Shown here: positions 2,862 through 5,771 of the stretch, piece after piece
Position numbering within the stretch: position 1 is the stretch's first letter
Layout: each line of letters opens with the position of its first letter
IMG/VR virus record: IMGVR_UViG_3300047550_002510
Span: 1-23,872 of that record
DNA: 23,872 nucleotides
Strand: one strand, 5' to 3'
DNA from: a virus
The notes under the pieces: generated by a model
What the model was told of the DNA's origin: nothing
Database searches by the model: none
The model's input: the letters and a program-made list of their open reading frames with translations, nothing else
Program-made: the position numbers and the translations under genes

Positions 2862-3038
2862 ATGTACAAGCTTTTCGTTGTCTTTGCTGTTGCTGGTCTT
2901 ACCGCTTGTGGTTCGTCCGCCTCGTCTGACGCGGCCACTACGACCGATTCTTCGGCTGTTGTCATCACGGCTACCCCTGATACGACTCATGCGGATTCGT
3001 CGGTTCACGCACCGGCTGCTGACTCGCTCGCTAAGTAA
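2862..3038 (+). CDS. small lipoprotein
   Basis: Has 58 residues: a short signal peptide with lipobox LTAC, so lipidation is expected at C16, followed by a low-complexity tail of Ala, Ser, Thr and Asp (disordered). Start 2862 was chosen over ATG 2850 because GGAG (2852-2855) lies six bases upstream of it. It could be an outer-membrane spanin partner or a superinfection-exclusion lipoprotein. No inner-membrane spanin is seen alongside, so the role is open. The stop codon abuts the hammerhead ribozyme. Confidence 0.7.
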   Translation: MYKLFVVFAVAGLTACGSSASSDAATTTDSSAVVITATPDTTHADSSVHAPAADSLAK

Positions 3039-3146
3039 GCAATACTGACGAGCCCTTAATGGGCGAAAGGTTTCCCACGGCGAATCTAGAGCATAGGGAA
3101 ATTAAAATGGGGTACACTCTTGAACGCCGTCCCCAACCTCTATTGC
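3039..3146 (+). ncRNA. hammerhead ribozyme (type I topology)
   Basis: All conserved core positions are present: CTGACGA (CUGANGA) at 3045-3051; stem II GCCC/GGGC (3052-3055/3061-3064, loop TTAAT); GAAA at 3065-3068; cleavage triplet CTC at 3138-3140. Stem I GCAATA/TATTGC (3039-3044/3141-3146) is perfect. Stem III pairs AGGTT with AACCT (3068-3072/3135-3139). After a 4x4 internal loop it continues as ACGGCG/CGCCGT (3077-3082/3125-3130), capped by 42 nt. Predicted self-cleavage falls between 3140 and 3141. AAGT (3033-3036) and ACTT (3153-3156) could extend stem I and provide the internal loop that normally contacts loop II. It starts one base after the lipoprotein stop and would separate that mRNA from the tRNA transcript. 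Confidence 0.85.
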
Positions 3147-3344
3147 AAGGCGACTTCCCTGTAATCGTATGTACCGGAATTAGTCTAATCAACGATGGTA
3201 AATGGTAAGCGCACCAGACTCGTTGACCCATCCGATAGAATCATTTTCCGATGTTTCAATTCACGGGTGATAATAAAATAAATTAGACAATATCGGGGGA
3301 GTTACGGTTGTCCCCATAGGAGTGGCCACTTCAACAACCCTAAC
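3147..3344 (+). ncRNA. structured non-coding leader between ribozyme and tRNA-Gly
   Basis: About 200 nt with no credible ORF. It contains complementary pairs: TCAACGA/TCGTTGA (3189-3195/3220-3226), CCGATA/TATCGG (3232-3237/3291-3296), GTCTAAT/ATTAGAC (3183-3189/3282-3288) and GGTTGT/ACAACC (3306-3311/3334-3339), the last enclosing the palindrome AGTGGCCACT. The first and third pairs share base 3189 and may compete. This would be the 5' part of the ribozyme's downstream cleavage product. Function is unknown. Confidence 0.4.
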
Positions 3345-3513: not shown

Positions 3514-3542
3514 TTGACAAGTTACACATAATTGGTTATGTT
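3514..3542 (+). promoter_or_regulatory. sigma70-type promoter for the large structured RNA
   Basis: TTGACA 3514-3519, 17-bp spacer, TATGTT 3537-3542 (weak -10). The predicted start is near 3549. Confidence 0.55.
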
Positions 3543-3548
3543 GAAGGT

Positions 3549-4003
3549 GTTGTTGGAAATCCGGCGTGACGATGATTCATTTAATAATAATTCCGTCACG
3601 AATCGGTTAGCAATCTTCGATGATTGCTGTAAACGAGGCACGGCACTCGGGGTAAAAGTCCTCCTTGAACCGTAGTTGTATCCATCGTGTCCTAACCTAC
3701 GATGTAAAAAACGACCTTCGGGTAAGATGTTAGGGCGGTCACATACCGTAATTATGTGCGGGCTTAGCGCCGAGACAAGGCTAAGAAGGGTGGTTCTCTT
3801 GTTAGCGGCATATGGGCCGACTATCTGAAACAACTGGTGTATCGGTGGGTACATCACTAATCTGAATTCGGTTAGTAAATAGTAGGCGTGATACACCTAC
3901 TACCACATCTCCACAGTTGCATTAATGTCAACGTGGGGAATCCTCCTTGTGGTTGTTGGTGCGCTGTACCCCCGAAGCGCGTTATAAATCTCGGGGGTTT
4001 TTT
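3549..4003 (+). ncRNA. large structured RNA (~455 nt) of unknown class in the tRNA array
   Basis: A non-coding unit between its own promoter and a strong terminator. Visible helices: 3565-3571/3594-3600, 3609-3615/3622-3628, 3683-3688/3699-3704, 3691-3696/3729-3734 (crossing the previous one, so a pseudoknot), 3714-3716/3721-3723 with a TTCG loop, 3740-3745/3753-3758, 3763-3768/3780-3785, 3806-3809/3816-3819, 3836-3843/3890-3897, 3881-3886/3896-3901 and 3911-3919/3929-3936. No plus-strand ORF is present. Size, pseudoknots and tRNA neighbours resemble the ornate phage RNAs GOLLD and ROOL. I cannot confirm membership, and it may be a new class. Confidence 0.65.
3969..4003 (+). terminator. intrinsic terminator of the large structured RNA
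   Basis: CCCCCGA (3969-3975) pairs with TCGGGGG (3991-3997), followed by six T ending one base before tRNA-Lys. GCGC pairs (3961-3964/3977-3980) cross the stem, so an alternative pseudoknotted fold could let transcription into the tRNAs. Confidence 0.8.
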
Positions 4004-4077
4004 GCTCCTATAGTGTCAACGGTTAGCACAAGAGACTTTTAATCTCTACAGTCTTGGTTCGAATCCAAGTGGGAGCA
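4004..4077 (+). tRNA. tRNA-Lys(TTT)
   Basis: Acceptor GCTCCTA/TGGGAGC, anticodon arm AGAGA-CTTTTAA-TCTCT (TTT), T-arm CTTGG-TTCGAAT-CCAAG, A73. Its 5' end touches the T-run of the preceding terminator. Confidence 0.92.
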
Positions 4078-4081
4078 TTAT

Positions 4082-4450: not shown

Positions 4451-4543
4451 ATGCCACATCCAAAAAAGTGCGGAAAGGGTCGTCGTAAGGTCGGCTCAAA
4501 GAAACGTAGAAATCGTTGGAAGAATAGAAAGCGTAAATTCTAA
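4451..4543 (+). CDS. 30-residue highly basic micro-protein
   Basis: GGAG at 4441-4444 precedes ATG 4451. The 30 residues include 16 Lys/Arg spread over the whole length (…KKCGKGRRKVGSKKRR…), with a single Cys and Trp. Such composition suggests nucleic-acid binding, for example an RNA chaperone or condensing peptide, or a ribosomal-protein-like fragment. I do not recognise a family. It sits between tRNA-Thr and another micro-gene in the tRNA transcript. Confidence 0.55.
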   Translation: MPHPKKCGKGRRKVGSKKRRNRWKNRKRKF

Positions 4544-5411: not shown

Positions 5412-5771
5412 ATGAGGTTCTTAACAAGAAAGTTAGTACAACCCGGCGATTTAAATGCAAACGGTACACTATTTGGTGGTCGGTGTTTAGCGTGGGTAGA
5501 CGAAGAAGCGGCAATCTACGCGGCAATAGAAACACGACATAAACGTGTAGTCACCAAAAGTATGTCAGCAATTAATTTTGCAGCGCCGGCCCGTCAAGGT
5601 GATGTAGTGGAAATCGGTATCGCACTGAAACGTGTGGGTAAAACGTCTATTACGTTAGAAGTACAAGTTCGTGATTTGACAACGCAACGTGTTATTGTTA
5701 ACATAGATGAGATGGTATTTGTGTGCGTTGACGAAAACGGAAAACCAGTTCGTCATAGTTTAGGTAGTTAG
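5412..5771 (+). CDS. acyl-CoA thioesterase, hotdog fold (YciA-like)
   Basis: Hydrolyses acyl-CoA thioesters in the cytoplasm. The 119 residues match a single hotdog domain. The motif LNANGTLFGGRCLAWVDEEA (residues 14-33) is the family's helix-capping and catalytic segment, with Asp30 as the probable catalytic residue. A later VEIGIALKRVGKTS strand also matches. Start ATG 5412 is set by GGAG at 5403-5406; the open frame upstream is tRNA-Phe. It is an unusual phage cargo gene, isolated between tRNA-Phe and tRNA-Asn. It might alter host lipid or CoA metabolism, or have been captured with the tRNAs (inference). Confidence 0.88.
   Translation: MRFLTRKLVQPGDLNANGTLFGGRCLAWVDEEAAIYAAIETRHKRVVTKSMSAINFAAPARQGDVVEIGIALKRVGKTSITLEVQVRDLTTQRVIVNIDEMVFVCVDENGKPVRHSLGS

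Follow-up and report, generated by a model that had tools for sequence, protein, structure and literature searches.

By sequence and structure comparison, the tRNA array of a virus fragment in IMG/VR contains a new family among the large structured RNAs of phage tRNA islands, a kind already known. The fragment, analysed over its whole 23,872 bases (the window), carries 32 tRNA genes, and the RNA, named F here, occupies ~455 nt of it without coding for a protein. F is very likely a real, so far undescribed working RNA. A homologue at the same place in a second phage lineage, a pattern of compensatory changes between the two and a folding energy below that of shuffled sequences bear on this reading.

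Genomic setting and limits of the F unit

The proteins of the window include an endolysin and an amidase, and Microcystis phage Mel-JY01 is the closest named phage as measured by two proteins (53-60% identity). An Rfam search of the whole window returned tRNAs only. F lies inside the array between tRNA-Leu(UAG) and tRNA-Lys(UUU), and since both of these flanking tRNAs are complete an intron was ruled out.

Related phages were traced through a thioesterase-like gene of the array, which gave 42 loci whose source records were then searched for F. A homologue was found once, on a 166.6-kb contig (L065; 73% local identity, E 3e-48) where the gene order Leu(UAG)-F-Lys(UUU)-Ile-Met gives it the same place as in the window, and another contig carries a copy identical to that of L065. 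A blastn search of 50,697 phage records gave no match, a covariance model of a 143-column core recovered the known homologue only from 50 phage records and ~200 loci, scans of IMG/VR with exact and gapped patterns led to no new lineage, and 84,980 scanned genomes of bacteria and archaea added no F. Apart from that same phage, the pattern-scan matches that we examined were coding-looking DNA without tRNAs; none of the scan matches run through the covariance model was supported, and the best of them (L208, E=0.019) was judged to be a chance match. Within the collections searched F is by this count rare, with two lineages, and relatives retain the same tRNAs while lacking it.

The thioesterase-like protein used for the tracing (phrog_18230, 5412-5771, within the array) shows 80-96% identity over dozens of phages, and the tRNA order is heavily shuffled among these phages. 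The array also encodes a very basic 30-aa peptide (MPHPKKCGKGRRKVGSKKRRNRWKNRKRKF, 4452-4543) whose DNA is conserved in L014 (93%) and in L007/L008.

The initial annotation described a promoter-to-terminator unit of about 455 nt, and both of its ends were located (Table 1). The putative promoter starts just past tRNA-Leu(UAG) and matches the consensus at 10 of 12 positions (TTGACA 3514-3519, a 17-nt spacer, TATGTT 3537-3542); its L065 counterpart, TTGACA-17-TAAGTT, has the same −35 box and spacer and a weaker −10 box. At the other end ACCCCCGA (3968-3975) pairs with TCGGGGGT (3991-3998) ahead of TTTTTT (3998-4003), a terminator that a simple scanner overlooked because its loop is 15 nt long. 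The terminator stem of L065 has another sequence in the same arrangement. In both phages the T-run ends no more than one base from the 5′ end of tRNA-Lys. Given established tRNA processing, a terminated transcript and a read-through transcript cut by RNase P should therefore have nearly identical 3′ ends. These elements suggest that F is probably a transcription unit of its own.

The claim that F contains no ORF also held, in that none longer than 50 aa is found on its + strand. A 124-aa antisense frame is open in F of the window and closed in L065, where the longest antisense stop-free run is 64 codons, which rules out an antisense gene; by this comparison a conserved ORF is absent from F. 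An anti-Shine-Dalgarno decoy was rejected as well: CCUCCUU occurs twice in F of the window and, by eye, is absent from that of L065.

Table 1. Positions of F, its helices, its flanking elements and other array RNAs (window coordinates unless another record is named)
Feature	Position	Strand	Remarks
Structured non-coding RNA F, whole unit	3549..4003	+	Folding z, same-place homologue in L065, covariation
Sigma-70-like promoter, TTGACA-17-TATGTT	3514..3542	+	L065 has the same −35 box and spacing
P1 (3565-3571/3594-3600)	3565..3600	+	Stem identical in L065
P2a (3603-3605/3634-3636) and P2 (3609-3615/3622-3628)	3603..3636	+	One compensatory pair each
Candidate P3 (GAGG 3635-3638/CCUC 3660-3663) and P4 (ACGG 3640-3643/CCGU 3670-3673)	3635..3673	+	Enclose invariant GGGGUAAAAGUCCUC
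Pseudoknot, P5 (3683-3688/3699-3704) x PK1 (3691-3696/3729-3734)	3683..3734	+	PK1 one compensatory pair; P5 unchanged
P6, UUCG hairpin inside the pseudoknot region	3714-3723	+	Unchanged
P7 (3740-3745/3753-3758)	3740..3758	+	3 of 6 pairs compensatory
P8 (3763-3768/3780-3785)	3763..3785	+	4 of 6 pairs compensatory; also in blind scan
P9 (3786-3790/3796-3800) and P10 (3806-3809/3816-3819)	3786..3819	+	P9 one-sided change; P10 unchanged
P11 (3836-3841/3850-3855)	3836..3855	+	One-sided change, better pairing in L065
P12 (3856-3862/3870-3876)	3856..3876	+	Loop UGAAUUC; 5 compensatory pairs, 1 not kept
P13 (3880-3886/3896-3902)	3880..3902	+	Invariant loop CGUGAUACA; 2 compensatory pairs; also in blind scan
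P14 hairpin (approximate limits)	3909..3940	+	Same place in L065; by eye from the alignment, outside the pair count
P15 (3961-3965/3976-3980), P16 (3968-3975/3991-3998), T-run (3998-4003)	3961..4003	+	H-type pseudoknot and terminator
tRNA-Lys(UUU)	4003..4078	+	ARAGORN; adjoins the 3′ end of F; same junction in L065
Array RNA family A	L065 2858-3041		Pairs changed on both sides
Array RNA family B	L020 726-924		Pairs changed on both sides
Array RNA family C	L014 3520-3753		Pairs changed on both sides
Array RNA family D	L010 11612-11833		Pairs changed on both sides
Array RNA E (candidate)	3031-3344 (core 3067-3139); L065 3419-3733; L095 9780-9861; L087 4688-4772		

Covariation and pseudoknots

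Where at least eleven helices had been claimed, we counted 17 in both homologues, in addition to P14, which was drawn by eye. Between the window and L065, the two sequences that this count covers, 18 of the 91 pairs in the 17 hand-drawn helices (P14 excluded) are compensatory, 67 are unchanged, 4 are changed on one side and 2 are broken. The compensatory changes lie mostly in P7, P8, P12 and P13, with one each in PK1 and P16, while P15 is unchanged. P3 and P4 are the weakest helices; P4 contains one broken pair, and in the window P2a and P3 cannot both be complete because they share two bases. Homologues with no covariation in the helices had been named as grounds for giving up the structure, and the 18 compensatory changes against 2 broken pairs favour it instead. 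Such changes in predicted helices are the mark of a structured non-coding RNA.

Full covariation statistics are not possible with two distinct F sequences, and since a hand-drawn structure may be biased, we added two blind controls. A mechanical scan of a sequence-only alignment found five stems with at least two compensatory pairs; column shuffling gave 0.57 such stems on average, and 0 of 500 shuffles reached five. Pairs predicted from L065 alone contained 16 compensatory changes, with a maximum of 15 over 2000 randomisations, and those predicted from the window alone contained 11, with a randomisation maximum of 10. The folding energies compared with dinucleotide shuffles gave z values of −2.94 for F of the window and −3.16 for that of L065. 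RNAalifold overfits covariation on two sequences and was left out of the evidence. F is, on these comparisons, almost certainly a real conserved structured RNA.

The pseudoknot formed by P5 and PK1 is present exactly as the initial annotation had drawn it, and the strands of PK1 read CCUAAC/GUUAGG in one homologue and CUUAAC/GUUAAG in the other, a compensatory change. A second pseudoknot, which had been thought possible at 3836-3901, fared less well. Its strands are indeed complementary (GGUGUAU 3836-3842 with AUACACC 3891-3897), but the pairing is unchanged in L065 and would compete with P11, the better hairpin, so that it is unproven: 3836-3842 also supplies the 5′ strand of P11, and a change of the partner strand from UACAUC to UACACC improves P11 in L065. 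By the same comparison the stronger second pseudoknot is one at the 3′ end, of the H type, in which GCGCU (3961-3965) pairs with AGCGC (3976-3980) and crosses the terminator stem, whose strands also read ACCCCCGA/UCGGGGGU. The second stem of this pseudoknot is thus the terminator, and the arrangement is kept in the window and in L065.

Known families and other RNAs of the arrays

Stable RNAs other than tRNAs come from the tRNA cluster of phage T4, a setting like that of F, and these RNAs (C and D) are much shorter than F. None of the Rfam 15 covariance models, GOLLD and ROOL included, matched F at the gathering threshold or at E≤5. GOLLD and ROOL had been put first for this check, and because F failed the sequence-structure tests for both we filed it as a separate family. 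The earlier suggestion of a new class stands for the sequence and structure of F, in two lineages, and does not extend to a demonstrated new function. Taking GOLLD and ROOL as the only RNAs to compare with was too narrow, as phages ICP1 and K also make abundant large non-coding RNAs, which have been likened to ROOL and GOLLD (PMC7567579, PMC9241854).

ROOL (Rumen-Originating, Ornate, Large) and GOLLD occur in phages and prophages, in many cases close to tRNA islands; they assemble into cages of 8 and 14 copies and have no known function (PMC12286853). F resembles ROOL, a large non-coding RNA with several pseudoknots (PMC12286853), in its location in the array and in having more than one pseudoknot (PK1 and the one at the 3′ end), but its ~455 nt compare with 659 nt for the cryo-EM ROOL, and its helices are others. 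It shares with GOLLD the phage setting near tRNAs; GOLLD copies are joined by palindromic kissing loops (PMC12286853). Many GOLLD members exceed 800 nt, however, and F has a sequence and fold of its own. OLE is likewise a large structured RNA and dimerizes with a palindromic loop contact (PMC12286853), but it comes from extremophile bacteria rather than phages and its Rfam model does not match F. The RNAs of ICP1 and Staphylococcus phage K also contain no coding sequence, and those of phage K lie near tRNA genes (PMC7567579, PMC9241854); unlike F, they are known as abundant transcripts, and F had no blastn match in the phage collection.

In related phages, at least four other RNA families (A-D) occupy gaps of the tRNA arrays, with 7-11 pairs changed on both sides, compared with 0-3 in slid controls. 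A fifth, candidate family, E, is less certain than these four, with just 2 such pairs. Its core is common to four phages and looks pseudoknotted, and in L095 its terminal T-run adjoins the next tRNA, as in F. The likeness of E to a hammerhead (3030-3150, CUGACGAG...CGAAA) is superficial, with no Rfam match. One member of each of the families A-D and the window's copy of E were scanned against Rfam with no credible match, and profile searches between F and the other array families gave no cross-match. F is the largest of the array RNAs A-F. Elsewhere in the array, a promoter-like site (TTGACA-17-TATTAT, 2509-2537) is followed by a perfect 9-bp stem (GGTGAGTGG/CCACTCACC, 2547-2555/2600-2608); this is perhaps another small array RNA, for which a search found no homologue.

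Possible modes of action

Our best explanation, offered tentatively, is that F is a stand-alone phage RNA that acts in trans and self-associates through the loop of P12. It would be a phage-encoded structured RNA, neither mRNA nor tRNA; comparison shows that two phage lineages conserve its fold, including an internal pseudoknot that covaries and a 3′ end that is pseudoknotted in both. Its own promoter would drive transcription, the Lys-Ile-Met tRNAs downstream would be made along with it, and either the terminator or, where transcription reads through, RNase P cleavage at the adjoining tRNA-Lys would set its 3′ end. That F acts in trans as an RNA rather than as a leader is likely. Least certain are the last steps, in which copies of F might associate through the P12 loop, as do the ornate RNA-only assemblies OLE, ROOL and GOLLD, and might build a particle or scaffold of RNA in the infected cell. 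Though a separate family, F may work like GOLLD and ROOL.

Self-association is proposed mainly because the palindrome GAAUUC (3864-3869) is kept in the P12 loop of both homologues on a rewritten stem, and OLE and GOLLD self-associate through palindromic kissing loops (PMC12286853). It is the sole 6-nt palindrome at a matching place in both F RNAs, and we found by eye no conserved intramolecular partner for it. Against this, GAATTC also occurs elsewhere in the window, about as often as expected. Kept unchanged in the two sequences and not switched to another palindrome, the loop is not evidence of pairing by itself, and we regard the self-association that it hints at as possible. We would be doubtful of the wider claim that F represents a new, self-assembling class of phage RNA with a GAAUUC kissing loop and two pseudoknots at its base, and is the largest of a wider, uncatalogued set of structured RNAs swapped in and out of the tRNA arrays of one phage clade.

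It is also somewhat plausible that a stand-alone, monomeric F forms a particle with protein or acts as a host-factor decoy. The covariation argues for such an RNA as it does for a stand-alone F in general, a partner could bind at long invariant single-stranded stretches such as GGGGUAAAAGUCCUC and the loop of P13, CGUGAUACA, and large RNAs are not always oligomers, as shown by raiA, a monomer, and by HEARO, which needs its protein to be ordered (PMC12286853). However, the neighbourhood of F names no partner protein, and a monomer leaves the GAAUUC loop on its rewritten stem unexplained.

A cis-acting leader or attenuator, in which folding of the upstream RNA would switch the terminator and so control read-through into tRNA-Lys-Ile-Met, is unlikely. 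F is the physical leader of the tRNA operon, and in both phages its terminator stands directly before the tRNAs with no space for a further promoter. In place of the terminator stem, its strand CCCCGA (3970-3975) could pair with UCGGGG (3647-3652), and L065 has a shorter version of this possible antiterminator (CGGGG with UCCCG). Yet this pairing is short and does not covary between the two sequences, 455 nt with so many helices is long for an attenuator, T-box and other riboswitch models of Rfam do not match, and the relatives without F have the same tRNAs. That F is non-functional, a chance structure or the remnant of an opposite-strand protein gene as its two lineages and the 124-aa frame open in the window might suggest, is very improbable in view of compensatory changes above every control and the closure of that frame in L065.

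Among the large phage RNAs found near tRNA islands, GOLLD and ROOL are RNA-only cages, none with a known function. F would add to these a shorter new family with a second homologue in hand, in which transcription and assembly are directly testable. The several covarying RNA families in the arrays of its relatives suggest that the tRNA arrays of phages hold a wealth of structured RNAs, for the most part still unread.
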